The notes under the pieces were generated by a model. It was not told where the DNA came from. It made no database searches and was given only the letters and a program-made list of their open reading frames with translations. A stretch of DNA of 64,000 nt from a virus, in IMG/VR virus record IMGVR_UViG_3300021963_000040, positions 1 through 64,000 of that record. One strand, written 5' to 3'. A program made the translations under genes and the position numbers. Numbering within the stretch: the stretch's first letter is position 1; every line of letters begins with the position of its first letter. Shown here one piece after another: positions 14,301 to 51,994 of the stretch.

Positions 14301-17300
14301 CAATGACTGCTACACTAGCTACTAGTGGCGTAACAGCAGGCTCATATGGTAGCTCAACATCTATTCCGGTAATTACAGTTGATAGTAAAGGTCGTGTAAC
14401 AAGTTTATCTACAAGTTCTATATCTAGTACAATTACACTAACAGGAGATGTAACAGCTACAGGCTCAACTGGTTCTAGTTTTGCTACTACATTAGCGGCA
14501 AGCGGTGTAACAGCAGGCTCATACGGTTCTACAACACAAGTTGGTGTAGTAACAGTTGATACCAAAGGTCGTGTAACCAGTGCAAGCAATTCTTCTATAG
14601 CGTTCCCTGTAACTAGCGTTGCAAGCCGTACTGGTGCAGTTACATTAACAAAAACTGATGTTGGACTTGCTAACGTTTCAAATAGTTTACAAGTTATTAA
14701 TAGTGGTAGCGCAAATACATTACAAGTTGGCACAGCCGCAAGCCGCCCAACAGCAGGTACTAGTGGTAGAATTTATATTACCAGCGATACTAACACATTG
14801 TTCTGGGATAACGGTACAAGCTGGACAAGCATTACGCCAGCATATACAGGCGATGCAACAGTTGCGGCCGGCGCAACAACTATTACATTAGCCAATAGCG
14901 GTGTATCAGCGGGTACATATGGTTCTGCTACAGCCATTCCAACAATTACTGTAGATGCAAAAGGTCGTGTAACTAGTGTATCTACATCAAGTATTTCTAG
15001 CGCATTGACATTCACCGGCGATGCAACTGGATCTGGTTCAACTGGCGGTTCAGTGGCATTGACACTAGCCAATAGCGGTGTAACAGCAGGTACATATACA
15101 AAGGTAACTGTAAACGCTAAAGGCTTAGTAACAGCAGGTGCAACAGCCACAGCTGATGATATGGCTGAAGGTGCAACCAACAAGTATTATACTGATGCTA
15201 GAGCAAGAGCCGCAGTAAGTGCCGGCACAGGCATTAGTTATAATAGTTCAACTGGGGTATTCAGTTTACCACAATCAATAGCAACAACAGACGGTGTTAC
15301 ATTTGGTTCCGCTACAATTACAGGTAACCTAAGTGTTGGTGGTACATTAACTGTAACTGGAGGTACTACTACTATTCAAAGCTCTACGCTAAACGTTACA
15401 GATCCAATGATTTATCTAGCTAGCGGTAATAGTGCAAACTTAGCAGACATTGGTTTTGTTGGTAGTAGTGTTATCAGCAGTACAACCAAATATACAGGTT
15501 TAGTAAAAGTTGCGGCAGATGGTAAGTGGCGCTTGTTTGGCGGTATTACCAGCGTTCCTACTACAACTATTAATACCGCAGATGTTGGCTTTACTAAAGA
15601 TACATTATTAGCTAACATTGAAGGTAACGTTACTGGTAACCTTACTGGTGCAGTAACAGGTAACGCTGACACAGCAACCAAGTTAGCAACAGCACGTACT
15701 ATTACCTTAGCCGGTGACGTATCTGGTAGCGCATCTTTTGACGGTAGTGCAAATATAAGCATTACTACAACTGGCGTATCTTCTCCTAAGTGGAGTACAG
15801 CACGTACATTGAGCTTTACTGGTGATGCAACAGGTAGCATGTCAGTTGACGGTAGTGCAAATGCAAGCACCGCACTAACATTAGCCGCATCCGGTGTAGC
15901 GGCAGGCGTTTACGGTAGCTCAACAGCTATTCCATTAATCACAGTTAACTCCAAAGGTTTAATTACCAGCGTAAGCACAAGTAATATTTCTGTAACATCT
16001 AGTAGTATCAGCGACTTTACAACAGCGGCTCGTGCAGTTAACTCTGCAGGCTCTGGTATTACATATAGCGGCGGCGTAATTACTAATACTGGTGTATTGG
16101 CAGTAAGCGCAGGCACCGGCATTAGTGTAAGCACAACAGGCGGTACAGCAACTATTACTAACGGTGACTTAGGTTCATCACAAATGATCTATAAGAACAT
16201 TAGTGATGGCACAACAACAGCATCTGCAGGTTCTAACAACGATACAATTAAATTTAGAGCAAGTACAGGTGTTACAGTAACAGTAGGTAGTAATGATGCA
16301 ACTCACGGCGATAACGTGTTAATTGGATTAAGTTCTATTCCAAACTCTTCGTTAGCTAACAGTTCAGTAACTGTAACAGCAGGTACCGGCTTAAGTGGCG
16401 GTGGTTCAGTTGGTTTAGGTAGTTCTATTACATTAACCAACGCAGGTGTAACAAGCATCAGCGGTACAGCTAACCAAGTTGTTGCTACCGGAAGTACAGG
16501 TGCTGTAACATTAAGTTTACCACAAAGCATTGCGACGGCTTCAAGTCCTACTTTTGCAGGTATGACATTAAGCGGTTTAACAGGATATGTTTATGCTAAC
16601 GGTGCTGGGGTAATGACAGCCAGTGCCACAATACCTGCCGCGGCAATCAGTGGTTCAATTCCAAGTACAACTAACGCAGTTAACACTGGTATTACTGACG
16701 ACACAACTACAGCGGCCACAAAGTATATTACATGGGTAGATGCAACAAGTGGTAATCAACCACAGAAGGTAAGCTCTACTAAGTTAACATTTAACCCAAG
16801 CACAGGCGATCTAACAGCAACTAGGTTTGTTGGTTCTGGTGCAGGATTAACAAGCATTCCAACAAGCGCATTAGCAAGCAGTTCAGTAACTATTACAGCA
16901 GGTTCTGGCTTAACTGGTGGCGGTACTGTTTCATTAGGTAATAGTATTACAATTACCAATGCTGGTGTAACTAGTATTACTGCCGGTACAGGCATGAGTG
17001 TGTCCGCATCTACTGGTGCGTTGACTGTTAATAACACAGGTGTAACAAGTATTACTGGTACAGCTAACCAAATTACCGCAAGCGCAAGCACAGGCGGTAT
17101 TACACTAAGTCTACCACAAAGTATTGCAACAGGGTCTACACCGACATTTGCTGGTGTAATTGCTGGTAACTTCTATGACAGCACAGGCACATATAACAGT
17201 AACTTAGGTAGCGGTAACTCTGCAGGCCGAGGTGTTGTTGCAGGTTATAGCGGTGGCGCATATGGCGGTATTGGTTATAACATTACTCATACTGGAACAA

Positions 17301-18796
17301 GCTCAGTATACAACAAACCATTAAACGATACAACAAGTTATCTACGTTTTGATACAGGTGGATTTAACTTCTTAACTAATACCAGCGCAACAGCCGCAAG
17401 TAGTATTTCAATGACATCTATTGCTTCTCTAAGCAGTGGTGGTGTGTTCAATGCTACTGGTGGTTTACAAGTTAACGGTGTTAACGTAGTTACAACTGGT
17501 ACCATATCAGGCCTAGCACCTAGCTTAACAGGTTCAGGTGCAAGCGGTACATGGGGTATTAGTATTTCAGGTAATGCGGCTACAGTAACCAGTGGTGTTT
17601 ATACAACCGGTTCATATGCAGATCCTGCATGGATTACAAGCCTAGCAGGTTCAAAAATTACAGGTACTATTTCCGGTACCGTAGCTTCAGCTACTAATGC
17701 AACCACAGTAGGCGGCGTATCTAAGTCTCAGTTGTTTAATAACACAGGTAACAACCATAGTACATATCAGTCATTTGGCGCTATACCTGACTTTGGCTTC
17801 TATCACATACAAAACAACGCGGCCGCAGATCGCCCATCTAACCACCAACAGTATTCGTTGACTTTTGGTTTAGGTAACGATTATGCGCTAAGTTCTTATG
17901 CACACCAAGTTGCGTTCCCTCGTATCGGTACATATAGCGGCTCTGGTGGTGATAACAACAACTACATGTGGATTCGTCAGCGTGAAGGCGGCACCTGGAG
18001 TAACTGGGGCAAGGTATATGCAGGTTATGCAGATACTGCCGGCACAGCAAGTAACATCAGTGCATACACTATTAACCAAAACGTTGGTTCTAGTAACGCT
18101 CCTACATTTGCTGGTCTAACCTTAACCGGTGCAGTAACAAATAGTAGCACAACTACTTTCAACGGCGCAGTTAACGTTGGCACAAGCACTAACTTATCAT
18201 TCGGTAGCCAAACACGCCAGATGATTAACTTATGGAGTACATCATATGGTTTAGGTGTACAGTCAAGTACAACTTATATCCGCTCTGGTGGTAGATTCAG
18301 CTTCCACAGAGGCGGCACACATAGTGATACTGAAAACGATCCAGGATCTGGTGGTACAGTAGCAATGAGCTTAGACAGCTCTAGCAACTTAAACGTTACT
18401 GGTGACGTTGTAACAGCATTCTCAGATATCCGCTTAAAAGTTATAGAAGGTAAGATTCTAAGTGCAGTTGACAAAGTTAAACAGCTTGACGGTTTCTACT
18501 ATACAGACAATGACCTAGCTAAAGAAATTGGTGCCGGCAACGGTAAACGTAAAGTCGGTCTAAGTGCTCAACAAGTACAGGCCGTATTGCCAGAAGCTAC
18601 ACAAATTGCACCATTTGACCAAGACGAGAACGGTAACAGTAAGAGCGGCAAGGATTACCTAACCGTTCAATACGAAAAACTAGCACCATTGTTTGTTGAA
18701 GCGATCAAAGAACAAGATGCTAAGATCGAAGCACAGGCAAAAGAAATTGCTGATCTTAAAAATCTTGTTGCTCAGCTCATGGATAAATTAAAGTAA
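8342..18796 (+). CDS. Giant repetitive tail fibre with C-terminal S74 chaperone/peptidase domain
   Basis: A 3484-aa fibre. The N-terminal region contains the fibre motif ATKEYVD, and related ATK.YVD motifs recur near residues 616 and 1393. From about residue 215 to 2550 at least 18 copies of a module with core TVD.KGRVTS occur, usually preceded by GVTAGTYG. Several copies of a larger unit contain VAGKTG.VTL..DVGL and LQVIN. The C-terminus is a peptidase S74 intramolecular chaperone domain beginning at SDIRLK. Ser3361 and Lys3366 match the catalytic dyad, so self-cleavage would release the last 124 residues after trimer folding. KVGLSAQQVQAVLPEA and a terminal coiled coil complete this domain. 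Adsorption role is inferred from family. RBS is weak; a late promoter lies upstream. Confidence 0.92.
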   Translation: MYKIKTNNSFVINTAGTDQLEVGPNGDIQVLTGYLSTTKKPTQSFHVATKEYVDSVAQGLDVKESCQALADSNVNISNPPNTIDTWILSIGDRILLINQAEKADNGIWVYNGPGNPLTRASDANSNDLVTNGMYALVTEGTSYRATGWILTTAGAIDLGVTHLTFVQFTGTGGLTAGNGIQFAGRVISAVSANVDNIDISSAGINLAPIGPGYGTYNHVTADAYGRIVAAEHINYLTDNNIITIVGDASGSGRTTINLTLANTGVTPGLYTPELNKAPTFSVDNHGRLTYAGLGNVTITASSVTDFAEAVQDTVNDFINLDPSTGLQTTYNDGANTYTLSLRTTGVAAGTYGDDTHTVIATVDAQGRITNLEEVLIDFPVKSVNGANGDVIVDESGNLTLDKTSVGLGNLENALQVINAGGVPRMLVGTTATRPANNSAAPGTLFVNTDTFAIERDTGVVWTTIRPAVAGDVNIPAGSGSSVLSNSGVTAGTYTKVIVDAKGRVTSGTQVTNNDIVTGLGYTPLNLAGDTMTGPLAVQGGALNDLPITFSGNTTTGIYSPGTNSIAIVTNGVARQRVTSGGRTLIGAGVDNNVDVLQVFGNIKANDPTSTSHVATKNYVDTSISAAIAISTTDDVDEGLGNLYYTDTRVRNALGVSGNLQYNALTGVFSYITPNTDGITEGSTNKYYTDTRVRNALAASGSGLLYNAVNGTFTVNSTANATANTLVFRDVNGNFSAGTITATLQGNAATSTRLATARTIAISGDATWSTSFDGSTNVTSGLTLSTVNSAPGSFGATNKTLSATVDAKGRITALSHADINIVSAQISDWASSVRTTAGGMFTSNAESGVAAVYNSTTGKVDFDVADFDLTFTGDATGTNSVINLTNTSIALTLADTGITAGVVGGANAIPVLTLDSKGRVIGVNTTVPNITASNVSNFVEAAQDATASLITAATHEGVSVAYDDDNNKLAFTNTDKGSTQQIFKNIFVAGSSTLTAGVNNDNLTFEAGSGINITTNAGIKSVVISNTGVNGLVGTPNRVTVSNSTGTVTLTTPQDIHTGASPTFNNITATGGVINTGATTSFLFPTVATTVNIASVANAINIGRASTTVTIPGNLVVQGSSSIVNSTVTSVQDPMMELGGGPDGALLTSDDGKDRGIAYQYYSTTAKKGFFGRSASNGKFVYIPTATISSDIATGAIGAFDLSGTDVLTIAGNTGSKTLKGGETFTISGGSLLSTTVSNNTLTLGLNNTAVSAGTYGSATQTVTFTVDAQGRLTGASQQSIAIPSTQITDFTEAAQDAASALFTNGTHTGITAAYDDNNGKINLSLNTTGVTTGTWTKVTVDTYGRITAGTNLTGTDITNTLGYTPLNKAGDGMSGFLTLSADPTNSLHAATKGYVDTSINTLTTLVNLVSKPAVKVATISNLASLSGTQTIDGYATSVGDRVLVKDQNTPSQNGIYIVASGSWTRAADASQGTLVPGAYVTVLNGNTWSGYSFICNNGTQITVGTTDVTFNIFQAPVAFMGGAGLVRNSLTFDVGTASSNRIVVNADNIDLATTGVVSGTYNTVTVDAYGRVTTGANTAYLTQNEVINVTGDVTGSGRQSLGLTLVNSGVTAGTYGTSMAVPRITVDAKGRVTNVTTEAFVAPVNSVAGKVGNITLTAADVGLTNLANSLQVINDGSTPSIAAGLESAKGSPDITKVGRIWIATDTTTLWRDTGTAWIPLIPQFTGDVTKPLGSTALTLSNTGVTAGVYGNGAQIPIVTVDAKGRVTSISTSPITGSFTLIMQGDMTASGTSEQTITATLANTGVVAGNYGTGTTIPAITVDTKGRITSATTTPISFPVASVAGKTGTVTLSASDVGLSAVANNLQVINAGNAVSIATGLNSGKPAAATAGRLYFSTDTGGIYYDTGSAWTLMTPALSGDATTSANGTTITLANTGVTAGTYGSSSVVPVVTVDSKGRITGVSTASIPSSSITITGDISVSGTAGTSMTATLATSGVTAGSYGSSTSIPVITVDSKGRVTSLSTSSISSTITLTGDVTATGSTGSSFATTLAASGVTAGSYGSTTQVGVVTVDTKGRVTSASNSSIAFPVTSVASRTGAVTLTKTDVGLANVSNSLQVINSGSANTLQVGTAASRPTAGTSGRIYITSDTNTLFWDNGTSWTSITPAYTGDATVAAGATTITLANSGVSAGTYGSATAIPTITVDAKGRVTSVSTSSISSALTFTGDATGSGSTGGSVALTLANSGVTAGTYTKVTVNAKGLVTAGATATADDMAEGATNKYYTDARARAAVSAGTGISYNSSTGVFSLPQSIATTDGVTFGSATITGNLSVGGTLTVTGGTTTIQSSTLNVTDPMIYLASGNSANLADIGFVGSSVISSTTKYTGLVKVAADGKWRLFGGITSVPTTTINTADVGFTKDTLLANIEGNVTGNLTGAVTGNADTATKLATARTITLAGDVSGSASFDGSANISITTTGVSSPKWSTARTLSFTGDATGSMSVDGSANASTALTLAASGVAAGVYGSSTAIPLITVNSKGLITSVSTSNISVTSSSISDFTTAARAVNSAGSGITYSGGVITNTGVLAVSAGTGISVSTTGGTATITNGDLGSSQMIYKNISDGTTTASAGSNNDTIKFRASTGVTVTVGSNDATHGDNVLIGLSSIPNSSLANSSVTVTAGTGLSGGGSVGLGSSITLTNAGVTSISGTANQVVATGSTGAVTLSLPQSIATASSPTFAGMTLSGLTGYVYANGAGVMTASATIPAAAISGSIPSTTNAVNTGITDDTTTAATKYITWVDATSGNQPQKVSSTKLTFNPSTGDLTATRFVGSGAGLTSIPTSALASSSVTITAGSGLTGGGTVSLGNSITITNAGVTSITAGTGMSVSASTGALTVNNTGVTSITGTANQITASASTGGITLSLPQSIATGSTPTFAGVIAGNFYDSTGTYNSNLGSGNSAGRGVVAGYSGGAYGGIGYNITHTGTSSVYNKPLNDTTSYLRFDTGGFNFLTNTSATAASSISMTSIASLSSGGVFNATGGLQVNGVNVVTTGTISGLAPSLTGSGASGTWGISISGNAATVTSGVYTTGSYADPAWITSLAGSKITGTISGTVASATNATTVGGVSKSQLFNNTGNNHSTYQSFGAIPDFGFYHIQNNAAADRPSNHQQYSLTFGLGNDYALSSYAHQVAFPRIGTYSGSGGDNNNYMWIRQREGGTWSNWGKVYAGYADTAGTASNISAYTINQNVGSSNAPTFAGLTLTGAVTNSSTTTFNGAVNVGTSTNLSFGSQTRQMINLWSTSYGLGVQSSTTYIRSGGRFSFHRGGTHSDTENDPGSGGTVAMSLDSSSNLNVTGDVVTAFSDIRLKVIEGKILSAVDKVKQLDGFYYTDNDLAKEIGAGNGKRKVGLSAQQVQAVLPEATQIAPFDQDENGNSKSGKDYLTVQYEKLAPLFVEAIKEQDAKIEAQAKEIADLKNLVAQLMDKLK

Positions 18797-18806
18797 AGGA
18801 ATAAAA

Positions 18807-19109
18807 ATGGCAGTTAAAGTAAATGCAACCACAGTAGTTGATAACTCAGGTAACGTAACACCTAGTGGTAGTTTTTCTACATCAGGAAATATTACAGCTA
18901 CAGGAACTGTTACAGCGGCCAGTGCCAGTGTAACGGGTAACGCAACGGTTGTTGGTACTACACAATCATTGGCTTTTTATAATTTAAACACAATAAGTTC
19001 AAACTTAACGATCCCGGCAAATACTAATGCAATGTTAGCTGGCCCTTTAACAATAGCAAGCGGGGTTACAGTTACAGTAAGTAGCGGATCGGGCCTAGCT
19101 ATTGTTTAA
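18807..19109 (+). CDS. Small repetitive fibre-like structural protein
   Basis: A 100-aa Thr/Ser/Val/Gly/Asn-rich protein, composed of short beta-type repeats (for example GNITATGTVTAASASVTGNA) that resemble fibre shaft or beta-helix modules of the preceding giant fibre. AAAGGA 8 bp before the ATG serves as RBS, and the gene starts 10 bp after the fibre stop. It has no signal peptide or membrane segment. It may be a fibre tip subunit or a piece split from a longer fibre; no specific family is recognised. Confidence 0.75.
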   Translation: MAVKVNATTVVDNSGNVTPSGSFSTSGNITATGTVTAASASVTGNATVVGTTQSLAFYNLNTISSNLTIPANTNAMLAGPLTIASGVTVTVSSGSGLAIV

Positions 19110-19117
19110 GGGACAAA

Positions 19118-19696
19118 ATGAGCAATTTGATAACTAACAATTTACAGGGTCCTAGTAACTTAATTAATATTAATCCTGGATCAACATTAAATGCCGCAAC
19201 CACAGGCGGCATTGTTGCCCCCGGAATGATTATTCAATCAGTTTGGAACAGCACTTCTAGTAGAAGAACATACACAAGTCCACAATCGGGTAGTGGACAA
19301 CCAATATATGAATTAGAATTAAAAATTACCCCTGTCAGATCAACTAGTCAAATATATTTGCAATGGATGTTATTTTATGAAATGCATCATGATAACGTTT
19401 TTACAATTTTACGTAATGGCAGTCTAGTTGGGTATAATACACAAATGGGAGACTATATGTGGTCCGGAGTACAAGGTGGTAGATATGATCAGGATGCGGC
19501 CAGTACTCCACAAAATATAGCAATAACATTTATAGATGCCCCTGGTGGAACAAGTACTTACAATTATCAGTTAGCTGTACGTTGCAGTTCAAATACCAGT
19601 TATACATTTGCGTTGAATAGGCCTCTTAACAGTTGGGGCGGAGACAGTAACGAAACAGGTGTTAGCATGGGAATAGCTATGGAGATTGCACAATGA
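19118..19696 (+). CDS. Paralogous tail/adhesin protein 1 of 6 (subfamily A)
   Basis: A 192-aa protein, first of six tandem paralogues. Shared plan: an N-terminal segment ending in V.PGM.IQ (here IVAPGMIIQ), a central beta-rich part, and a C-terminal GVSMGIAMEIAQ. Subfamily A is marked by an E..H.NVF.I..NGSL-type block (EMHHDNVFTILRNGSL) and ALNR near the C-terminus. Ala/Gly/Ser/Asn richness and no signal peptide fit a virion surface protein. RBS AGGGAC precedes the ATG. The stop overlaps the next start as ATGA. Function as receptor-binding or decorating protein is inferred from its place in the fibre island. Confidence 0.8.
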   Translation: MSNLITNNLQGPSNLININPGSTLNAATTGGIVAPGMIIQSVWNSTSSRRTYTSPQSGSGQPIYELELKITPVRSTSQIYLQWMLFYEMHHDNVFTILRNGSLVGYNTQMGDYMWSGVQGGRYDQDAASTPQNIAITFIDAPGGTSTYNYQLAVRCSSNTSYTFALNRPLNSWGGDSNETGVSMGIAMEIAQ

Positions 19697-20286
19697 GTAC
19701 CTTAGTCACAGGCATGATTATGGCCCCTGGCGGCCTAGGCGGTGCTATCCAAGTAACTCCGGATACAAGATTAGTTGGCGCCGCGGCCGGTGCGTTTGTT
19801 GCAAGGGGAATGGTTATTCAAACTGTAATTAATAAACAAAATAATAGATCTACTTGGTCATCGCCTCCTACGGGCAACGGTACAACAATTACTGATATGA
19901 ATTTGACTATTAGTCCTAAGCGTGCCGGTAGTATTATTTTGTGTGAATGGACAATGTTTGGCGAAATTCAACATAACAATGTATTTGTTATACATAAGAA
20001 TGGTAGTTTAGCGCCAGGCGGGTACAACTTAAATGCAGGCAATAACCGCTGGTCCGGTTATCATACTTGCGTGTATGATGGTGACGATAATAGTACACCA
20101 GCCACACATCACATGATGTATTGGGATAGCCCTGCCTCTACTGCATCTGTAACTTATGCACCAGCGATAAGATGTTCTAACGGCAATACTTACACATTTG
20201 CGTTAAATCGTACTTTAGGCAGTACAGGCCAATGGGCATATGAGAACGGTGTAAGTATTGGTATAGCATGGGAGATAGCGGCATGA
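19693..20286 (+). CDS. Paralogous tail/adhesin protein 2 of 6 (subfamily A)
   Basis: A 197-aa paralogue of the preceding gene, starting in its stop codon (ATGA). It carries the same landmarks: FVARGMVIQ, EIQHNNVFVIHKNGSL, then the C-terminal part with FALNRTLGS and GVSIGIAWEIAA. It is clearly closer to gene 1 than to genes 4-6. Translational coupling with both neighbours suggests the array is made in fixed ratio. The product is probably exposed on the tail; no enzymatic motif is seen. Confidence 0.8.
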   Translation: MSTLVTGMIMAPGGLGGAIQVTPDTRLVGAAAGAFVARGMVIQTVINKQNNRSTWSSPPTGNGTTITDMNLTISPKRAGSIILCEWTMFGEIQHNNVFVIHKNGSLAPGGYNLNAGNNRWSGYHTCVYDGDDNSTPATHHMMYWDSPASTASVTYAPAIRCSNGNTYTFALNRTLGSTGQWAYENGVSIGIAWEIAA

Positions 20287-20879
20287 GTTTTACAGAAGTA
20301 GGATCACTAACAGCATTATCAAGCAATCAGATTAACGTACCCTCAGGTCATGTAATTCTAGGAGAAGCCGGAAGTATAGTAACCCCAGGTTCGGTAATTC
20401 AAACGGCTTTTTCAAGAACAGATGTAAGAACAAGTTATTATAACTATACTCAAAATGACTATGTTCAATCATGGACTCCTATTCGTCAACTACAATTAAG
20501 AATAAAGCCGCTGTATGCTAGTTCTGCTATTTTTGTAAAGTTTGTTGTAAACTATGAAATGGAATACAATAGTATTTGGAATTTGTTAAAAGATGAACAG
20601 CCTTTTATTAGTACTATGAATGAATCATATCCTAGACGTTGGGCCGGTATGTGCGCCACTAACTATGATATGGGCGATCATAGTTCTACACCAAACCAAT
20701 TAACAATGATGTGGGTAGATATGCCAGGATCTGATCAAGCGCAGTCTTATAGTCCTGGCTTTAGACGAGCCGACGGCGGCGGTGTAACCTGTTGGTTAAA
20801 TAGAACATACAGTAGTTCTGGACAAGATTCATATGAGGTAGGAGTTAGTTACGGGGTTGCTATGGAGATTGCACAATGA
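20283..20879 (+). CDS. Paralogous tail/adhesin protein 3 of 6 (subfamily A, divergent)
   Basis: A 198-aa protein. The ATG at 20283 is chosen because it gives the ATGA overlap seen across the array; a start at 20268 would run further into the upstream gene. Landmarks are IVTPGSVIQ, NYEMEYNSIWNLLKDEQPF in place of the NGSL block, CWLNRTYSSSG and GVSYGVAMEIAQ. It belongs to subfamily A but has diverged in the presumed loop regions. Role inferred as for its neighbours. Confidence 0.8.
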   Translation: MSFTEVGSLTALSSNQINVPSGHVILGEAGSIVTPGSVIQTAFSRTDVRTSYYNYTQNDYVQSWTPIRQLQLRIKPLYASSAIFVKFVVNYEMEYNSIWNLLKDEQPFISTMNESYPRRWAGMCATNYDMGDHSSTPNQLTMMWVDMPGSDQAQSYSPGFRRADGGGVTCWLNRTYSSSGQDSYEVGVSYGVAMEIAQ

Positions 20880-21523
20880 GTAATTATCTTAACGTTGACA
20901 ACTTTACTGCCTTGGGCGGTTCTGGAACAATTAATGTTAAAGCAGGAACGTCAATAAACGGGACTGGAGGTTCTATTCAATGTCCCGGACAAATTGCTCA
21001 AGTTAAATTTAAGCATCTAGGTCCCAGTAGGTTAGGTGTTAGAAACGACAACTTAACTTTAGTTCCAGGAACAGAATTAGATTTTCGTTGTTATAGAGGT
21101 AATAGTAAAGTTTTATTAACGGCAACAATATGTGCTAATGCTCCTTATGTAACATCTTTTGGATTTTTAGTTGACGGGGCCACAATGTGGGACGCAACAG
21201 GAAATAGTAATGCCGCTGGTGCAATAGTTACACAATATGTAGGAACAGCCGCGCCTAATACAAGCGGCTATTTATGGTACGGTGGTACAACGGCGGCGCA
21301 ACAAACAACATCAAGAAACACCAACTCTGCAGGACAAGAACAAGTATATCAATTTTCAATGCAATATGTTTATACTCCGGGTGATGGTTCTTTAAAAACA
21401 TACTCTATAGGAGCAACTTGTTCTTGGGCCGGTCAAGGTGGATATATGTTACTAATTAATGATAGATGGTCGTATGACATGAGAGGCACAAGTACTATCA
21501 GTGCCATGGAGATAACACAATGA
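20876..21523 (+). CDS. Paralogous tail/adhesin protein 4 of 6 (subfamily B)
   Basis: A 215-aa protein starting in the previous stop (ATGA). It keeps the N-terminal pattern (IQCPGQIAQV) but belongs to subfamily B, marked by YVTSFGFLVDG in the centre and a C-terminal INDRWSYDMRGTSTISAMEI. These features recur in genes 5 and 6. The family resembles small beta-sandwich tail proteins, but I recognise no named domain. Receptor binding is inferred only from context. Confidence 0.8.
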   Translation: MSNYLNVDNFTALGGSGTINVKAGTSINGTGGSIQCPGQIAQVKFKHLGPSRLGVRNDNLTLVPGTELDFRCYRGNSKVLLTATICANAPYVTSFGFLVDGATMWDATGNSNAAGAIVTQYVGTAAPNTSGYLWYGGTTAAQQTTSRNTNSAGQEQVYQFSMQYVYTPGDGSLKTYSIGATCSWAGQGGYMLLINDRWSYDMRGTSTISAMEITQ

Positions 21524-22146
21524 GTACTATTCAATTTAGTAACTTGCGAGCAAGAAGCGATTTAGTATATGGCGGCGGCGGGGCCCGAAGCCAAACAACA
21601 TATGGATTAGGTGGTACAGGGTCCGGTGCTGGTTATATTTACTTAAAACCCAATTGCTCTTTAGAAGCTCCTACAGTTGGGCAAATTGCGGCGCCAGGAA
21701 TGGTAGTACAAACAGCATGGGTTAATAGCTCTAGAAATAGACAAAATGTGTTTAGTGATAGTCTTGCTAACATCCCAGAATTGTCTATTGCTTTTGCGGC
21801 AAAATATTCAAACAGCTGGTTATTGTTAAGAGCTAACATTCAAGCAACCGGACGTCATGTAAGTACATTTGGTTTCAAAGCCAACGGTGCTAACATATAT
21901 AACTTAACCAATACAAACAGTGACGGATCGGTAACAACTACTTATTTTGGCGACGATAGTGATAGTTATCTGCGTACATTTTTTATCATGGGTAGATATT
22001 ATCCTGGTACAACTGGTACCATTACATATACATGTGCGGCTTCTGCGTCTTGGTCGGGCGGCACAAGAAACTGTTACATTAACGATAGAGATTCGAATGA
22101 TATGAGAGGTTCTAGTACTTTTACTATAATGGAGATTGCGGTATGA
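21520..22146 (+). CDS. Paralogous tail/adhesin protein 5 of 6 (subfamily B)
   Basis: A 208-aa protein joined to the upstream gene by ATGA. It has a longer N-terminal Gly/Ser-rich lead (YGGGGARSQTTYGLGGTGSG) before IAAPGMVVQTAW. It then shows the subfamily B marks HVSTFGFKANG and YINDRDSNDMRGSSTFTIMEI. The Gly-rich lead is unique in the array and may be an insertion that changes spacing from the attachment point. Confidence 0.8.
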   Translation: MSTIQFSNLRARSDLVYGGGGARSQTTYGLGGTGSGAGYIYLKPNCSLEAPTVGQIAAPGMVVQTAWVNSSRNRQNVFSDSLANIPELSIAFAAKYSNSWLLLRANIQATGRHVSTFGFKANGANIYNLTNTNSDGSVTTTYFGDDSDSYLRTFFIMGRYYPGTTGTITYTCAASASWSGGTRNCYINDRDSNDMRGSSTFTIMEIAV

Positions 22147-22799
22147 GTACACTTCAACCCGTTGGTCTAGACGGTGCAACAGGCGCTAACATTAAGATTA
22201 CATCTGGTACTACCCTTAAAGGTGAAGTACCTGGTGCATTCTCGGCTGAAGGATTAGTAATTCAAGTTGCTTACGCAGAAACACCAGTAGGTAACTATTA
22301 TGATTTAAACTATACTCTTGAACTAAGTGCCATTCCTGATATGTTCATTGATTTTAAACCAGTTTATGCTACTTCTAAAATTCTTTTAACGTCAATGATT
22401 AGTATTAATCAACCACATGTTACAAGTTTTGGATTTTTAAGAGACGGGCTCAATATTACAGCAAGACAATTTTCACTGGGTCCAACCCCGGCGGCGGTCA
22501 CTGCATCAGACTATACAGGTGCTGTAACTTATGCCCCAGGATCAATGTCTACACTACAACAAAATAGTAACGTGGTTGGTGGGTTACATACCGTTTATAT
22601 GAACTGGGATGCGGCTGATAAAATGTGTAATTTTTTCTTGCAACAACAAGATTTTGATAATCGATCAAATGCTACTAGAAGATATCAAGTAGGCGTTAAC
22701 GCATCTTGGGGCGATAGTGTTAGAAGTTTGCGTATTAATGATAGAAGCAGTGGCGATATGAGAGCAATCTCTAATTTATGTGTTATGGAGATTGTATAA
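22143..22799 (+). CDS. Paralogous tail/adhesin protein 6 of 6 (subfamily B)
   Basis: A 218-aa protein, last of the array, starting by ATGA overlap. Landmarks are FSAEGLVIQVAYAE, HVTSFGFLRDGLN and RINDRSSGDMRAISNLCVMEI. Its stop overlaps the next start by one base (TAATG), extending coupling into the glycine-rich adhesin genes. It is slightly longer than its paralogues through extra sequence in the central region. Confidence 0.8.
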   Translation: MSTLQPVGLDGATGANIKITSGTTLKGEVPGAFSAEGLVIQVAYAETPVGNYYDLNYTLELSAIPDMFIDFKPVYATSKILLTSMISINQPHVTSFGFLRDGLNITARQFSLGPTPAAVTASDYTGAVTYAPGSMSTLQQNSNVVGGLHTVYMNWDAADKMCNFFLQQQDFDNRSNATRRYQVGVNASWGDSVRSLRINDRSSGDMRAISNLCVMEIV

Positions 22800-23893
22800 T
22801 GCCTATTCCTGTAAGTCAAGCAACAACTAGTTTTGTAAGGGTTGATCAAGTACAAGGTACTACCGGTGATGTTGGTATACAGACATTATCGCCTTATTGG
22901 GGGACTGCTACATTTTTAGGTCCGGGAAATTTTAACTTTAAAAAAACCGGTAGAGTAGTTATGCCAACTGATTGTAAAAAAGTTGTTTTTAACACTTTTG
23001 CAAGCGGCGGAAGTCAAAATTGGACCGTGCCACCTGGGGTGTCTTATGTATACATTAAAGTGTGGGGCTCTGGTGGCGGTGGTGGCCAGCAAGGTGGTTG
23101 GACACATGGTGCAGAAGGCGGAGCAGGCGGCCATAGTAGGGGATTATTAAGAGTATCGCCTGACGATGTATTATCTATTTCTGTTGCTCCTGGCGGCATT
23201 TCATTACCGCCTTACGGAAAGCCAGTAGCTCAAGGTGGCGGCGGTATGATTTTAGACAACCAACCAAATGTACCATCACAACAAGTTACAGGTGCATACG
23301 GTCCACAGGATCATAGATATTGTGGAGGTGGAGGTGGATATTCTGCTGTTTTTAGTGGAGGCCTACCTATGATAATAGCCGGTGGCGGCGGCGGCGGCGG
23401 AAGCCATAGCGGAACATGGAATCATTGGCCTAGGGGAGGTGCTGGCGGAGGAATTCGAGGACAAAACGGCTGGTCTAGCGCAGTTAACTGGGATTATCAA
23501 GCACGTGATCAAGCAGGCGGTGGAGGAAGCCAGTCTGGTGGTGGACACGGTTCATCTGCTCATAATAGTCATCAAGGAACCGCAGGTTTGTTCTTACAAG
23601 GTGGTCATGCTTTTGGCAGATATATGTATGGCGGAACAGGTGGCGGTGGCTTCTATGGCGGTGGTGCAGGTAGTCACACTCAGGGTGGCGCAGTAATGTG
23701 CGGCGGTGGTGGCGGATCTGGATTTTTACACCCTAGAATTTTAATGGGCGAAACCTTTACAGGTCACAGACAGTTTCCACCTTTAACAGAAGATCCTGAT
23801 TATCAAGCGAACGGCGGGAAACAAGCTAATATAGCACATGGCGGTGATATTGGTAATTACGGCGGCGAAGGTTTAATTATTATATATTATTAA
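22799..23893 (+). CDS. Glycine-rich adhesin 1 (ALK-type Gly-rich domain)
   Basis: A 364-aa protein. The ATG at 22799 is preferred over 22778 because it gives a TAATG junction with the upstream stop. About 90 N-terminal residues lead to QNWTVPPGVSYVYIKVWGSG, then a domain of very Gly-rich runs (GGGGGG, GGAGG, YGGGAGS) with regularly spaced aromatics, ending in GGEGLIIIYY. This pattern matches glycine-rich domains (Pfam Gly_rich type, as in ALK/LTK kinases) and resembles the polyglycine-helix tips of T4-like gp38 adhesins. It likely contacts the host receptor; function is inferred. Confidence 0.8.
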   Translation: MPIPVSQATTSFVRVDQVQGTTGDVGIQTLSPYWGTATFLGPGNFNFKKTGRVVMPTDCKKVVFNTFASGGSQNWTVPPGVSYVYIKVWGSGGGGGQQGGWTHGAEGGAGGHSRGLLRVSPDDVLSISVAPGGISLPPYGKPVAQGGGGMILDNQPNVPSQQVTGAYGPQDHRYCGGGGGYSAVFSGGLPMIIAGGGGGGGSHSGTWNHWPRGGAGGGIRGQNGWSSAVNWDYQARDQAGGGGSQSGGGHGSSAHNSHQGTAGLFLQGGHAFGRYMYGGTGGGGFYGGGAGSHTQGGAVMCGGGGGSGFLHPRILMGETFTGHRQFPPLTEDPDYQANGGKQANIAHGGDIGNYGGEGLIIIYY

Positions 23894-23902
23894 GGAAATA
23901 GA

Positions 23903-24904
23903 ATGCCAGGCATTATTAAAGTTGATCAAATTAGATCGCCTCAAGGAACTAACGGATTTAGATTTAATACCAGTACAAAGCAGGTAGAACAAATTGCTCC
24001 TGGTGATTTTTATTTACAGGTTGAAGGCGAGACATTTACGCCAAATAATAAAGTGTTTATGGCTTTCTTTTATAATGAAGCTCAAACAGGCTCTTATGAT
24101 CAAACTTGGACAGTACCTACTGGAGTAACACACATATATTGTAAATTATGGGGTTCCGGGGGAGGTGGCGGATGTCAAGGTGGATGGAATCACGGAGGCC
24201 GCGGCGGCGGTGGCGGCCATACCAGGGGATTAATACCAGTCTCAGCCGGACAAACGGTAACTATTAGAGTACCAAGAGGAGGAAACAATCAACCGGGCAC
24301 AACAAACGCTCCTTTTGGTGGTGGTTCTAGTACTGCGGGCGGCGATAATCAATACGCCGCCGGCGGTGGTGGATATGCGGCTGTGCTAGTAGCTGGTACT
24401 GTATATTTGGTTGCAGGCGGCGGTGGTGGTGGCGGAAGTACAACATCGGGCGGATTTAATCACGAACAACATGGAGGCGCCGGCGGAGGAATAACTGGTC
24501 AAACAGGATATGATCTTAATACATTGTCCGAAGCTGGTAGAGGAGGAACACAATCAGGTGGTGGCGCAGGAGGTACAGGCGGCAATACTACCGGCCAAGC
24601 AGGAAGCGCATATCAAGGAGGATCCACTAACGGAAACCCATACGGTGGTGGAGGTGGTGGTGGCTATTATGGAGGCGGTGCGGGCAGTTACGGCGGCGCA
24701 GGTAACATGGGCGGAGGTGGCGGTGGTTCTGGGTACGTACACAGTTCAGTCCTTTTAGGCGGTACATTTTCGGGCGCATACGATAGACCGGCCTTTCATT
24801 GGGATAATGACTTACCCAAGTATAGATCTACATACACTGAATTTGCAGTAGGTGGGGATTATTGTAATCCAGGTGGCGACGGATTCGTCTGCATTTATTA
24901 TTGA
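23903..24904 (+). CDS. Glycine-rich adhesin 2
   Basis: A 333-aa paralogue of the upstream adhesin with RBS AAGGAAAT. It starts with PGIIKVDQIRSPQGTNGFRF, an N-terminal form common in phage tail proteins that attach to a fibre. The Gly-rich domain starts at QTWTVPTGVTHIYCKLWGSG and ends with GGDGFVCIYY. Runs such as AGGGGGGGGST and GGGGGGGYYGGGAGSYGG are interrupted by Asn/Tyr/His residues that may be receptor-contact loops. A second adhesin of the same fold suggests alternative or combined receptor use. Confidence 0.8.
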   Translation: MPGIIKVDQIRSPQGTNGFRFNTSTKQVEQIAPGDFYLQVEGETFTPNNKVFMAFFYNEAQTGSYDQTWTVPTGVTHIYCKLWGSGGGGGCQGGWNHGGRGGGGGHTRGLIPVSAGQTVTIRVPRGGNNQPGTTNAPFGGGSSTAGGDNQYAAGGGGYAAVLVAGTVYLVAGGGGGGGSTTSGGFNHEQHGGAGGGITGQTGYDLNTLSEAGRGGTQSGGGAGGTGGNTTGQAGSAYQGGSTNGNPYGGGGGGGYYGGGAGSYGGAGNMGGGGGGSGYVHSSVLLGGTFSGAYDRPAFHWDNDLPKYRSTYTEFAVGGDYCNPGGDGFVCIYY

Positions 24905-24927: not shown

Positions 24928-26604
24928 ATGCCACGTAATGTTGTTAGATCAGGTTTAGTATCATACATTGATCCGAGAGATTCTGCTAGCTATAACGGAT
25001 CAGGTACAACTGTGACCGATTTAAGTGGTAAAGGCAACGATTGGATAATCCAGGGCAATGTAAGCTGGGATAGTACAAACGGTTTTGGTAACTTTACAGG
25101 TAACAGCACTGGATCTGGTAACAAGTTATATGCAAAAGTATCATCGGCTTATTACAACTTAAAAACCAGTCAAAACGGAACAGGATATACTATTTGTATT
25201 TGGGCAAAAAGTACAGGTGGTACGGGTGCATGGAGAGGTCTAATTAAAAACGCTGACGGCGAGAACTATATTGATTTATATCAAAGTCCTACCGGTCTTT
25301 GGCACCAAGACGGATCAGGTGAATACTTATATTATAACGATGGCAATTATGTTGCCAACGACTCATTAACAATGTCTGACTCTGTTTGGCGTATGTATGT
25401 TGCTACAAATTTAAATAATGGAACTACTACTAACCCATCAACAGGTTTAACAATAGGTAACGAACCAAACGGTTCTGGTACTGGCGCAAACGCTTATCCT
25501 TGGGTAGGACAAGTAGGCGCCGTATTAATTTATAATAGAGTATTATCTAAGCAAGAACTAGTTAACAATTTTGCGGCTTTTAGTTCTGTATATGGTGTAT
25601 CTGGATCAAGCGGTATTCCTGCCGCAGGATTTTTAGTAGCAAATGAAATTAATAGCTCAATATCCGAAGGTGGAGTGTATGCAAGCCCGGGCGTTGATTC
25701 AGTTGTCGGGCTAAAAGTTATAGGTAATAAAGATATGGTTTTGAATTTCCAAGGATTCAAAACTCCTACAAATAAAACCAAAGCAACATGGAGCTATACT
25801 GGCGGTGATCAAAGCTGGACTGTGCCAGCAAATGTATTTTATGTATGGGCAAAAATATGGGGAGCCGGCGGGGGTGGTGGATGTGCTGGCGGTTGGACTC
25901 ACGGGGCACAGGGAGGTGCAGGAGGATTTAGTGACGGCCTCATACCAGTAACTCCGGGTGAAGTACTTACTATACGTGTTCCGAGAGGGGGGTATAGAAC
26001 TCCTGGTGCAACTAATGCTCCATACGGCGGTGGTTCTAGCACTTCGGGCGGCGATAATCAATATGCCGGCGGGGGCGGTGGCTACTGCGGTATTTTTAGA
26101 AGTTCACAGCCTTTATTAATTGCAGGCGGAGGCGCAGGCGGAGGATCCACTACAAATTGGAACCAATGGTGCCATGGTGGTGCAGGCGGTGGAGTAGAAG
26201 GAGAACACGGTTATTGTGAAATTTATACTTACGCAGGTACAGGGGGCGGCCCTGGCGCAGGTGGTACCGGAGGCAATGGTAACAATACAGGCGGTGGTGG
26301 TGGATCATCATTGCAAGGCGGATCAGTACAAGGTAACGTTTATGGTGGCGGAGGCGGTGGTGGCTATTTTGGTGGTGGCTCCGGTAGCTACGGCAATGGC
26401 TATATAATGGGTGGCGGCGGTGGTGGATCTGGATATGTACATACTACTGTACTACTAGGCGGCACATATACTGGTAGTAGAACTACACCACCATTTGCTG
26501 AAGACCCAGATTTACCTAAAACCGGATCAACTTATCAAACACATGCTTTTGGTGGCCAAACATGCGGCCATGGCGGTGATGGGTATTGTGTAATATATTA
26601 TTAA
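24928..26604 (+). CDS. LamG-like plus glycine-rich adhesin 3
   Basis: A 558-aa two-domain protein. Residues about 5-220 look like a concanavalin/LamG jelly roll (GLVSYIDPRDSASY at the start; YTICIWAKS, WRMYVATN and QVGAVLIYNRVLSKQEL further on), a fold that often binds carbohydrate. Residues about 290-558 are the same Gly-rich domain as the two upstream genes (QSWTVPANVFYVWAKIWGAG to GGDGYCVIYY). RBS AAGGAATTT precedes the ATG. The fusion gives one protein a probable sugar-binding module and a polyglycine tip. Virion location is inferred. Confidence 0.82.
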   Translation: MPRNVVRSGLVSYIDPRDSASYNGSGTTVTDLSGKGNDWIIQGNVSWDSTNGFGNFTGNSTGSGNKLYAKVSSAYYNLKTSQNGTGYTICIWAKSTGGTGAWRGLIKNADGENYIDLYQSPTGLWHQDGSGEYLYYNDGNYVANDSLTMSDSVWRMYVATNLNNGTTTNPSTGLTIGNEPNGSGTGANAYPWVGQVGAVLIYNRVLSKQELVNNFAAFSSVYGVSGSSGIPAAGFLVANEINSSISEGGVYASPGVDSVVGLKVIGNKDMVLNFQGFKTPTNKTKATWSYTGGDQSWTVPANVFYVWAKIWGAGGGGGCAGGWTHGAQGGAGGFSDGLIPVTPGEVLTIRVPRGGYRTPGATNAPYGGGSSTSGGDNQYAGGGGGYCGIFRSSQPLLIAGGGAGGGSTTNWNQWCHGGAGGGVEGEHGYCEIYTYAGTGGGPGAGGTGGNGNNTGGGGGSSLQGGSVQGNVYGGGGGGGYFGGGSGSYGNGYIMGGGGGGSGYVHTTVLLGGTYTGSRTTPPFAEDPDLPKTGSTYQTHAFGGQTCGHGGDGYCVIYY

Positions 26605-26616
26605 GGAAATAAAATC

Positions 26617-26997
26617 ATGATGGATTATGTTAAAGAAGCCTTAAACATCTTAGCCCCTAATAAGTCATGGGTTAATAGAGGCGATTATATAGAATGGGCA
26701 GATGCAGAATGGGGTGCTAATGAATACAAACCTACTTGGGCAGAGATTAACCCTGTAATAGCACAACTACGTGCGGCAGAGCCTATGAGATTACTGCGTG
26801 AAGAACGTGACCGAAGACTTGCTTTATCTGATTGGATTGTAGTAAAGTCTTTAGAAAATGGTGTAGCAGTACCACAAGCATGGAAAAATTATAGACAAGC
26901 ACTACGAGACTTGCCTACAACTAGCTCTCCGCAATGCTGGCCTACAGATATATTGATAATGGAATCAATTAATTGGCCAACACCCCCTAACGCTTAA
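26617..26997 (+). CDS. Tail fibre assembly chaperone-like protein (APC type)
   Basis: A 126-aa protein; AAGGAAAT supports the ATG at 26617 over that at 26620. The C-terminal half carries RLLREERDRRLALSDWIVV and AWKNYRQALRDLP. This RD..L..SDW....W..YRQALRD pattern is characteristic of phage tail assembly chaperones (Phage_tail_APC type). The N-terminal half contains repeated Trp motifs (WADAEWG, PTWAEINP). It probably helps fold or trimerise the fibres or adhesins encoded upstream. It is cytoplasmic, with no signal or membrane segment. Confidence 0.75.
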   Translation: MMDYVKEALNILAPNKSWVNRGDYIEWADAEWGANEYKPTWAEINPVIAQLRAAEPMRLLREERDRRLALSDWIVVKSLENGVAVPQAWKNYRQALRDLPTTSSPQCWPTDILIMESINWPTPPNA

Positions 26998-27000
26998 ATA
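26994..27000 (+). promoter_or_regulatory. Possible late promoter TTAAATA
   Basis: TTAAATA overlaps the stop region of the first chaperone gene and lies 27 bp before the second chaperone start. It matches the late-box core; the assignment is tentative. Confidence 0.3.
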
Positions 27001-27027
27001 CAATATTAAAAATACAAAGGAATTATT

Positions 27028-27363
27028 ATGCCACTAGATCCAAATATGAGAGTAGAAAAAAGATTCGGCATAGGTGATGCACTAATAGTGTTAGCACCAA
27101 CCGCTCGTTGGTCAATGACCAACGATGAGTACGAATCAATTGATTGGATGGAAGATTCTGTTCCAAAACCAAGTAAATCAGCTTGCCTTGAAAAAGTAGC
27201 AGAATTGCAAGCAGAATATGATGCAATGCGCTATGCTAGGGATCGTTTATATGCTTATCCTAGTGTAGAAGAACAACTGGATACATTGTTCCATGGCGGA
27301 TATGATGCGTGGAAAACAATGATCCAATCAGTAAAAGATCAATACCCTAAACCAGGTAATTAA
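27028..27363 (+). CDS. Second tail fibre chaperone-like protein
   Basis: A 111-aa protein with RBS AAAGGAAT. The C-terminal part reads ARDRLYAYPSVEEQLDTLFH, then GYDAWKTMIQSVKDQYPKP. This YPS.E.QLD.L.H.G.D.WK..I..VK..YPKP pattern is common at the C-terminus of phage tail proteins and fibre chaperones. With the upstream APC-like gene it forms a chaperone pair at the end of the fibre island. It meets a convergent minus-strand gene, with a hairpin terminator at the junction. Confidence 0.7.
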   Translation: MPLDPNMRVEKRFGIGDALIVLAPTARWSMTNDEYESIDWMEDSVPKPSKSACLEKVAELQAEYDAMRYARDRLYAYPSVEEQLDTLFHGGYDAWKTMIQSVKDQYPKPGN

Positions 27364-27746
27364 GCAACTAACCTACTGGCGTGGATTTTCCCACGCCATT
27401 TTCTTATCTTAGTTATCCATTGTTGACCTACTATAGAGTATTCTTCTAACTCTATCATTTTTTTGCAAAGTTCTAGGTCTAAGTCACAAGCACGTATTAA
27501 TCTCCCTCTAAAATCGTCATCGAATACAACCATTTTAGAAATGTTGTTTAATTTTTCAACGTTAAAGGCATGAGAGATTTCATAGTACCATCTTTGTACA
27601 TATGGTATATGGTCTTGGTATAATGTATTAAGGTAAGGGTTTTTAAACTGACTATCCCAACAATGGATAAGCTCAAAACTTTTGTGTACAAGGGGCTTAT
27701 TAATTGCTTGCGGCTGTACAGGGAAAGGCAATATCTTTGCTGTCAT
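27360..27746 (-). CDS. Hypothetical protein, last gene of the minus-strand neck operon
   Basis: A 128-aa protein. I start it at MTAKILPFPVQ (27746); an upstream Met at 27779 is possible and neither has a clear RBS. The gene overlaps the Nudix gene by 47 bp. The protein is mixed charged with several Trp and Cys residues and ends in a basic segment (WITKIRKWRGKIHASR). No motif, signal or membrane segment is recognised. Placement behind neck genes suggests late expression but gives no function. Confidence 0.6.
   Translation of the reverse strand: MTAKILPFPVQPQAINKPLVHKSFELIHCWDSQFKNPYLNTLYQDHIPYVQRWYYEISHAFNVEKLNNISKMVVFDDDFRGRLIRACDLDLELCKKMIELEEYSIVGQQWITKIRKWRGKIHASRLVA
27377..27405 (+). terminator. 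Terminator at the convergent end of the fibre island
   Basis: An 8-bp stem TGGCGTGG/CCACGCCA with a 6-nt loop is followed by TTTTCTT. It would stop plus-strand transcription from the fibre island, although it lies within the 3' coding end of the minus-strand gene. Confidence 0.75.
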
Positions 27747-28182
27747 AGTCTTCGCTATGTATATGGGCAATAATAGCATCTAGCTTATGTCTAAAAGTCT
27801 TGCTAAAAAGTAAATTCTTAGCACCATTGTGTAACGGCTTTGGCCAGCATCCGGTGTTAACCCAGCAGTAGCCTGCAGACTCTTTGTTTAATACAGGAAT
27901 AAACTCTTCCTCTACTAAACAACAAAATGTATCATATATAAAATAATTGTCTTTACTTTTATATTGATGTAATGGATAAACTTTAATCATGTCGGGCATG
28001 ACCTTAAGTTCTTCTTGTAATTCTCTTTGTAATGCTTGAAACGGTCTTTCACCTTCTTCTACTTTTCCTCCCCACAAACTCCATGTGAGAGGAAAGTTAC
28101 AAATATGAGATCGTAGTTGCATTAATATTCTGTTAGTAGAAGTACAGTATATTATTGCACCGCAAGCGTGTATTTGTTTCAT
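27700..28182 (-). CDS. Nudix hydrolase
   Basis: A 160-aa protein whose ATG at 28182 overlaps the gp15 stop as ATGA. It has a near-complete Nudix box: G39, E45 and R53-E54-L55-Q56-E57-E58, preceded by LTWSLWGGKVEEGE. The Gly expected after the EE pair is Lys60. Nudix enzymes hydrolyse nucleoside diphosphates linked to another group, such as modified dNTPs, ADP-ribose or capped RNA; the substrate cannot be read from the motif. Location in a neck-protein operon is unusual, since phage Nudix genes usually sit with nucleotide metabolism genes. It is soluble, without a signal peptide. Confidence 0.9.
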   Translation of the reverse strand: MKQIHACGAIIYCTSTNRILMQLRSHICNFPLTWSLWGGKVEEGERPFQALQRELQEELKVMPDMIKVYPLHQYKSKDNYFIYDTFCCLVEEEFIPVLNKESAGYCWVNTGCWPKPLHNGAKNLLFSKTFRHKLDAIIAHIHSEDYDSKDIAFPCTAASN

Positions 28183-50936: not shown

Positions 50937-50974
50937 ACTTGTATTGTAAACAAATCCACTGCAAAGGACACAAA

Positions 50975-51994
50975 ATGGCTTCAGTAACAATTATCAAAGG
51001 TGTGTACGGTAAAAAAGAAGTAGTTAACACTACTTTCCCCCTTGTTAAACAACTTGCCTTTTTGCCCGACGGGCAAGGCTATGTTACTGTTGACGGTACT
51101 GCCGTAGACGGTTACCCCGATCGCCAACTTCGTATTAAAGTTGACAGCATTGCTGACTATACTATTGCAGGTGTAGAAGCTCAAGTTGGCAAGGCAGAAA
51201 CTGCTCCTGCTATCGAAGAGACAGACGAAGAAGTTATGACTCGTTTGCGTGAGCGTTTTAGCATCCTTGATGAGATGACCCAAGCAAGTGTGGACGGTGT
51301 CGTTCGTGCTATGATTGTGTCTGGCCCTCCCGGAGTTGGTAAGAGCTACGGTGTTGAACGTGTTCTTGAACAGAACTCGTTCTTTGACAAATTGGGTGAG
51401 CGTCCCGCTCGTTTCGAAGTTGTTAAAGGTGCGATGTCGGCTATTGGCTTGTATTGCAAACTGTTCAGCTTCGCTGACGCAGGTAACGTTCTTGTGTTTG
51501 ACGACTGTGACAGTATCTTGCTTGACGACCTGTCGCTGAACATTCTTAAGGCCGCACTTGACAGCGGTAGCAAACGTACTATCAGCTGGAACACTGACAG
51601 CTCTATGTTGCGTCGCGAGGGCGTGCCAGATCGTTTCGAGTTCAAAGGCTCTGTGATCTTTATTACCAACATCAAGTTTGAACACGTTCGTAGCCAAAAG
51701 CTCAAGGATCACTTGGACGCTCTTGAAAGCCGTTGCCACTACCTGGACCTGACTATGGACACGGTGCGTGACAAAATGCTTCGCATCAAGCAGATCATTC
51801 AAGACGGTATGCTTGACAAGTATGATTTTGAAGACGCTCAGAAAGAAGCTATTGTTAACTGGGTGTGGGAAAAGAAAGATCAATTGCGCGAGATTAGCTT
51901 GCGTACTGTTTTGAAGGTTGCTGACTTGGCTAAGATGAAGCCTATGGGTTGGGAGCGTTTGGCAGAAACTACCGTAATTAAGCGTCATGCTTAA
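50975..51994 (+). CDS. AAA-family ATPase
   Basis: A 339-aa protein. The ATG at 50975 follows AAAGGAC; an in-frame codon at 50939 lies at the transcription start and is unlikely. The N-terminal 90 residues form a beta-rich domain. The ATPase core has Walker A SGPPGVGKS (116-124), Walker B VLVFDDCDS and sensor-1-like VIFITN. DALESRCHYLDLT could carry an arginine finger. Such AAA proteins remodel protein complexes; the substrate is unknown. Leu and Arg codon choice (TTG, CTT, CTG, CGT) differs from the TTA/CTA-rich neighbours. Tandem strong promoters and a terminator isolate it as one unit. Confidence 0.88.
   Translation: MASVTIIKGVYGKKEVVNTTFPLVKQLAFLPDGQGYVTVDGTAVDGYPDRQLRIKVDSIADYTIAGVEAQVGKAETAPAIEETDEEVMTRLRERFSILDEMTQASVDGVVRAMIVSGPPGVGKSYGVERVLEQNSFFDKLGERPARFEVVKGAMSAIGLYCKLFSFADAGNVLVFDDCDSILLDDLSLNILKAALDSGSKRTISWNTDSSMLRREGVPDRFEFKGSVIFITNIKFEHVRSQKLKDHLDALESRCHYLDLTMDTVRDKMLRIKQIIQDGMLDKYDFEDAQKEAIVNWVWEKKDQLREISLRTVLKVADLAKMKPMGWERLAETTVIKRHA

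Follow-up and report, generated by a model that had tools for sequence, protein, structure and literature searches.

What do six related genes, lying in a row behind the giant tail-fibre gene of a T4-like virus, contribute to that fibre? The genes occupy positions 19118-22799 of the stretch analysed here (the window), which comprises positions 1-64,000 of IMG/VR record IMGVR_UViG_3300021963_000040, a metagenomic record of 134,798 bases. The virus has a T4-like portal gp20, prohead protease (gp21), gp23 major capsid protein and tail sheath; psbA, a sign of a cyanobacterial host, is absent. An earlier reading of the DNA (the original prediction) had taken the six products for interchangeable tip or decoration proteins. 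We conclude, with a probability of roughly 0.8, that they are the distal receptor-binding knobs of the tail fibre. We infer their presence in the virion, their trimeric state and their binding to a receptor, the last from family and position only. The genes of the array, and the small gene in front of it, are as follows (E, expectation value):

18807-19109, + strand: g0, putative docking stub of 100 residues with the C-terminal motif AGPLTIASGVTVTVSSGSGLAIV; homologous to S-TIM4 ORF37 (E 5e-8)
19118-19696, + strand: g1, probable knob subunit, subfamily A; matches the C-terminus of phrog_6942 (E 2e-17) and its paralogues
19693-20286, + strand: g2, probable knob subunit, subfamily A; phrog_6942 (E 6e-22), AlphaFold2 model with a confidence score (pLDDT) of 84, TNF-like by Foldseek
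20283-20879, + strand: g3, probable knob subunit, subfamily A; phrog_6942 (E 9e-17), ATGA overlap, true start at 20283
20876-21523, + strand: g4, probable knob subunit, subfamily B; phrog_7459 (E 4e-24)
21520-22146, + strand: g5, probable knob subunit, subfamily B; phrog_7459 (E 3e-28), AlphaFold2 pLDDT 81, TNF-like by Foldseek
22143-22799, + strand: g6, probable knob subunit, subfamily B; phrog_7459 (E 4e-27)

The six proteins, each of about 200 residues (192-218), are tandem paralogues in two subfamilies, as had been predicted, with similarities far beyond chance. BLASTP E-values run from 1e-22 to 1e-50 within subfamily A and from 1e-17 to 1e-22 within subfamily B. Between the subfamilies the best pairs reach about 1e-7 to 1e-8 and the remaining pairs are weak; a profile of A detects the three B proteins without exception, and the reverse holds too, with scores of 28-64 bits. 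A mechanical caller of open reading frames (ORFs) starts g3 at 20268 and the next gene downstream, g7, at 22778. We prefer the in-frame ATGs at 20283 and 22799, and with these starts the predicted layout is seen: all five internal junctions are ATGA overlaps and the exit into g7 is TAATG.

Other parts of the original description fare less well. Conserved ends around variable centres are not found: invariant columns are scattered over the full length, and entropy computed over 43 family members stays level along the chain. Length varies only in the linker, around residues 11-30. The N-terminal PGM.IQ motif is exact in g1 (PGMIIQ) and g5 (PGMVVQ), whereas the others read RGMVIQ, PGSVIQ, PGQIAQ and EGLVIQ. 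Repeated duplication is right for the family as a whole, but g1-g3 group together in a tree with weak support and the split between A and B is old, because both subfamilies occur in other phages. Searches of the virus's own genome found no further copies elsewhere in the 134.8-kb record, a nucleotide search found no close relatives among 50,697 phage records, and single-protein scans of IMG/VR with g1, g2 or g5 gave no matches. An alignment of all six proteins was too diverse for searching IMG/VR; separate alignments of A and B worked.

What kind of protein is encoded? The products of g1-g3 match the tail-fibre profile phrog_6942 over their C-terminal 200 residues or so (E 9e-17 to 6e-22), up to the end of the profile (707/708). 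The long fibre shaft of that profile is missing, and only about 35 residues precede the knob. The products of g4-g6 match the C-terminal half of phrog_7459 (E 4e-24 to 3e-28); the N-terminal stub of this profile is not in their chains and is encoded separately as g0. At the level of sequence, the family matches a single solved chain, the C-terminus of orf22 in PDB entry 9efk (residues 496-657 of 658, E 2e-14), a structure with 18 chains. S-TIM4 ORF22, considered as the identity of this chain, was ruled out, being annotated CP12. Pfam holds no model for any of g1-g6, and matches to YfzA, AllG and Orbi_VP3 lay below the cut-offs and were rejected.

Structure prediction gives a more specific answer. 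AlphaFold2 models of g2 and g5 as monomers, made from 43 and 21 homologues, have mean pLDDT values of 84 and 81. Foldseek matches both models, with probability 1.00, to the TNF-like trimer head of chlamydial Pgp3 and to the TNF-like lectin PLTL; g5 also matches the lectin domain of BC2L-C (probability 1.00). The lectins PLTL and BC2L-C bind sugars. In a library of viral structures the best matches are the homologues from S-WAM2 and ACG-2014j. Both models thus match the same kind of solved structures, which points to related folds for A and B, a relation on which the original prediction had staked itself beforehand. We take the six proteins to be jelly-roll knobs of the trimer-forming TNF/C1q type; in the g2 and g5 models the predicted fold is a beta-sandwich of TNF topology, and the knobs would work as trimers.

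How might such knobs be held on a fibre? g0 ends 8 bp before g1, so that a gene with a docking motif lies directly upstream, as it does in the three-gene tip sets of the Kyanoviridae. Of 883 distinct ORF C-termini from the loci compared, 14 bear the g0 motif, GPLTIASGVTVTVSSGSGLAIV, and every one of these lies 4-41 bp before a knob gene; this count is descriptive, the pattern having been written after examples were seen. g0 also matches positions 77-138 of the phrog_7459 profile weakly (E 0.005). Its homologue in S-TIM4, ORF37 (138 residues), is a stub alone whose C-terminus is the same docking motif. Three proteins of phrog_7459 type, P-TIM40 gp040, ACG-2014b gp033 and S-RIM50 gp211, align with ORF37 through their N-terminal half (about 50% identity). 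These resemble our locus in carrying the docking motif of g0 in that half and a B knob in the C-terminal half; they differ in being one gene each, with stub and knob fused, and in forming no array. Stub and knob are thus fused in certain phages and encoded apart in others. Such a pattern commonly signals association, and the two are likely to be in physical contact. Homologues of the stub gene occur in 303 phage records, nearly all of cyanophages.

These findings bear on the idea that the proteins decorate the capsid or tail sheath and have nothing to do with a fibre. C1q/TNF-like domains do occur in viral proteins other than tail fibres, for example in the collagen-like proteins of cedratvirus. 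The position behind the fibre gene, the docking motif, the fusions to a fibre stub and the adjoining chaperones of tail-fibre type all argue the other way, and we consider decoration very improbable. The original prediction thus loses its decoration proteins, since the relatives sit in tail-fibre loci, and keeps its tip proteins, on which fold, tail-fibre families, docking-stub gene and fused relatives agree.

A second question is how six chains could be made in step. Each junction carries the same element, of which the first copy may stand as the example:

19657-19699, + strand: junction element of g1/g2, with GGAG within the MEI codons, an 8-nucleotide spacer and the ATGA overlap; seen as a direct repeat (D1/D2) and in the GAG codon test

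The element recurs at 20247, 20840, 21484 and 22107, and a degenerate copy lies at 22781. A repeat search blind to the genes recovers the five junctions as a 43-nucleotide direct repeat, 63-81% identical, at a spacing of 590-644 bp. The terminal Met-Glu-Ile (Trp-Glu-Ile in g2) uses GAG in all six genes, and within the array GGAG stands 8 nucleotides before the next ATG. GAG makes up 19% of the glutamate codons in the window's genes, giving six out of six a p of 4e-5 if the sites are independent. Across the family, where the next gene overlaps or adjoins, GAG encodes this glutamate at 50 of 73 junctions; where the next gene is more distant, it does so at none of 22 (Fisher 2e-9). When orthologues are collapsed by hand the ratios are 13:5 and 0:6 (p = 0.003). 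Since GAG is tied to an adjacent next gene, the MEI motif appears to serve twice, as the end of one protein and as the Shine-Dalgarno sequence of the next gene. This placing of a Shine-Dalgarno sequence in a conserved C-terminus, as read from the DNA, is new here, and it gives strong support to the coordinated translation that had been proposed. A promoter scan over the array gave counts near those of shuffled sequences and was not used.

We propose the following mechanism. In each chain a short segment for docking, at the N-terminus, would be followed by a TNF/C1q-like jelly roll at the C-terminus, the part that would trimerise. The chains would be made in step from one message by termination and reinitiation, the GGAG in the conserved Met-Glu-Ile acting as the Shine-Dalgarno sequence for the overlapping start. 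Chaperones encoded at 26617-27363 would assist trimer formation; g0 would cap the fibre and hold the trimers by its C-terminal motif.

Which chains would share a trimer? In one answer g1-g3 would combine into a mixed A trimer and g4-g6 into a mixed B trimer, each chain in a place of its own, much as in the A, B and C chains of C1q. The 3 A + 3 B composition of the array fits this arrangement, and so does its mode of translation: short overlaps couple translation, and a study of two species found such coupled -4 overlaps 4.5- to 8-fold enriched among the genes for subunits of heteromers (PMC10666635). There is also a viral precedent in the virophage DSLV2, where three consecutive related tail genes yield a 1:1:1 heterotrimer, demonstrated biochemically; these tail proteins are of phage-collar (PF07484)/gp37-tip type and not TNF-like (PMC12724248). 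In the other answer, which the original prediction favoured, the genes encode six alternative homotrimeric tips, one trimer per gene, that share a dock, occur as a mixture on each virion and broaden the range of receptors. The fused proteins speak for it: stub and B head are joined in P-TIM40, ACG-2014b, S-RIM50 and S-RIM8, the B head occurs once in each, and such single knobs must homotrimerise.

The relatives pull in both directions. Knob arrays directly follow the giant tail fibre in S-WAM2, ACG-2014j and IMG/VR loci, and every marine array of subfamily A among these, those truncated at a contig end aside, consists of three genes. A tree gives each position in two marine groups a separate clade (100% bootstrap), so the genes have kept their order. 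A constant set of three genes in one order, with slot-specific N-termini, is hard to square with alternative homotrimers; it disfavours interchangeability and lends comparative support to the hetero-oligomer that had been offered as an option. Other relatives, taken to be freshwater, vary in copy number (2 A + 2 B, 4, or 6), which suits homotrimeric tips and, where the set is 2 + 2 or 4, tells against mixed trimers. The knobs diverge faster than gp13, in keeping with fibre tips. Individual slots differ in their rates of divergence, another feature suited to homotrimers.

A broader regularity appears among isolates. All 13 inspected isolates with the motif at the end of their stub or fibre have three genes behind it that share N-terminal homology (loci L168-L177, L180, L185 and L186; the stub is T4-GC 347). 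Loci L178 and L179, the exceptions, have no such motif end. The S-RIM2 set is interrupted after its first tip gene, before the second, by two small genes (L177:7793-8562), one of them annotated as a 2OG-Fe(II) oxygenase. The triplet genes of P-SSM4, Syn19, S-SM1 and Syn33 are mostly annotated as hypothetical proteins. For 11 of these isolates, representing 11 genera, slots were assigned from the first 42 residues alone, with each genome left out in turn, and 33 of 33 assignments were right; the heads behind these N-termini differ between phages. Some chains have no head at all: slots 1 and 2 of S-SM1 (76 and 82 residues) and slot 1 of S-MbCM100 and Syn33 (79 and 86 residues).

Slot-tagged N-termini with differing heads favour, at the level of sequence, an ordered assembly of three different chains. 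Slot orthology by descent would also recover the slots, so the triplet rule is evidence of fixed roles and not proof of mixed trimers. The headless chains count for hetero-assembly as well, since a slot of 76-86 residues makes no sense as an alternative tip. They are also what recommends a serial stack, in which the chains form successive segments of one fibre end, as gp34, gp35, gp36 and gp37 do in T4, and only the last is the true tip: headless chains are always first, or first and second, and never third. Yet all six chains here have full knobs without a C-terminal docking motif, and we know of no precedent for six stacked knobs; a stack is unlikely. Mixed trimers of three A and three B chains we place only just short of an even chance, and six homotrimeric tips are plausible with the odds leaning against them.

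Several points weigh against reading these genes as fibre-tip knobs or against extending the triplet rule to them. The virus is known from the genes of its metagenomic record alone. Two of the six chains were modelled, as monomers, and their TM-scores to solved structures are moderate, at about 0.45-0.55 of the query. The giant upstream fibre has its own S74 end, so g0, instead of that fibre, may carry the knobs. There are six chains here, divisible into three A and three B, in place of exactly three N-terminally homologous chains; their slot-tag scores are low and not in the order 1-2-3, and the tags, unrecognisable in g1-g6, cannot be assigned to them. With these points counted, fibre-tip knob genes with coupled translation remain well supported, and a set of interchangeable spares is disfavoured by the relatives. 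We tentatively suggest, at somewhat less than even odds, that the locus encodes two sets of three non-equivalent chains forming C1q-like heterotrimeric tips, each chain with its own address and held in register through the C-terminal Shine-Dalgarno sequence. It would then be one case of a rule among T4-like cyanophages, whereby a fibre end with a docking stub carries three different chains.

The closest known systems are the subfamily A tandem arrays of the Synechococcus phages S-WAM2 (BOW91_gp161-159) and ACG-2014j (M1M13_gp089-091), which give the best matches (32-45% identity). They too follow the giant tail fibre directly, have ATGA at some junctions and a chaperone downstream; unlike ours they have three genes, no B members and no separate g0, and they are annotated as tail fiber or hypothetical protein. 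In these two phages the slot before gp13 holds a fibre and three knobs. In S-TIM4 (L166-L168) a giant YadA-like fibre, ORF108, lies just before gp13 without knobs; this fibre mutated host-specifically in experimental evolution (PMC6224464). The Pam3 fibre gp24, with its chaperone gp25, is likewise a cyanophage fibre whose distal head, facing the receptor, includes a TNF-like domain, but it is encoded by one gene and has a helical baseplate-docking domain and glycine-rich loops on the TNF-like domain, so that it resembles g7-g9 below more than the six knobs (PMC9608196). C1q-like proteins of marine phages also have a C1q/TNF-type domain beside the tail fibre, are hypervariable and have been proposed to bind receptors; they are single genes, and the part of that account available to us describes no array or docking stub (PMC3909814). 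To our knowledge the tailspikes of Ackermannviridae include no ATGA-coupled small knobs. As far as the accessible part of the source goes, those branched tailspikes are similar in that several receptor-binding proteins are encoded together and have N-terminal assembly parts, and different in being large and in binding one another in the branch (PMC11414711).

The neighbouring genes complete the fibre locus:

8342-18796, + strand: giant tail-fibre protein, 3484 residues; C-terminal peptidase S74 (intramolecular chaperone; PF13884, E 5e-7, residues 3361-3419) and several tail-fibre PHROGs
22799-23893, + strand: g7, glycine-rich adhesin, 364 residues; PF12810 ALK_LTK_GRD (E 1e-5)
23903-24904, + strand: g8, glycine-rich adhesin, 333 residues; PF12810 (E 8e-11) and Gly_rich_2
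24928-26604, + strand: g9, laminin-G-like domain and glycine-rich adhesin, 558 residues; PF13385 (E 5e-7) and PF12810 (E 1e-8)
26617-26997, + strand: tail-fibre assembly chaperone, 126 residues; PF16778 Phage_tail_APC (E 6e-15); homologues directly follow the knob arrays of relatives
27028-27363, + strand: second chaperone-like protein, 111 residues, C-terminus KDQYPKPGN; homologues after the knob arrays of loci L009, L011, L014 and L016 (E 1e-25 to 1e-31)

Sequence comparison matched no solved structure to g8. Locus L016 (2199-8369) is a chain of cassettes: a tip set of 2 A comes first, then one of 2 B, then two sets of three, and a chaperone-like gene with the C-terminus YPKPE closes both of the first two sets. 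Directly 3' of the second chaperone gene in our window, a strong terminator-like hairpin (27377-27398, TGGCGTGGATTTTCCCACGCCA, then T-rich) marks the end of the fibre operon and the start of convergent genes. Further downstream the opposite strand has two genes, of 484 and 334 residues, with homologues in IMG/VR contigs; an opposite-strand gene downstream of the chaperones is, judged by eye from its sequence, presumably nudix-like. Between the fibre and the nudix-like and 484-residue genes (26617-28236), members of the lineage (L098, L105-L134) carry quite different fibre genes, which makes this stretch a variable, or hypervariable, island. Far from the array, at 50939-51994, two long ORFs overlap on opposite strands (351 residues on +, 335 on -), and the 351-residue ORF has an AAA_16 match only, below threshold.

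Phage fibre tips are usually treated as homotrimers that are swapped whole. Fibre heads of TNF type are already known, as are phages with several tips. New here is the combination of a six-gene knob array, a separate docking stub, an embedded Shine-Dalgarno sequence and the triplet context. With one stretch serving both as a protein motif and as the Shine-Dalgarno sequence of the following gene, this virion operon would provide a clear-cut case of dual coding. If each tip does comprise three address-tagged chains, a single virion may present composite or several binding sites, and predictions of host range that score tip genes singly would miss composite tips. In large, well-studied groups of cyanophages, with the stub gene in 303 records, these genes are annotated only as hypothetical or tail fiber, and the finding offers them a concrete, testable function.

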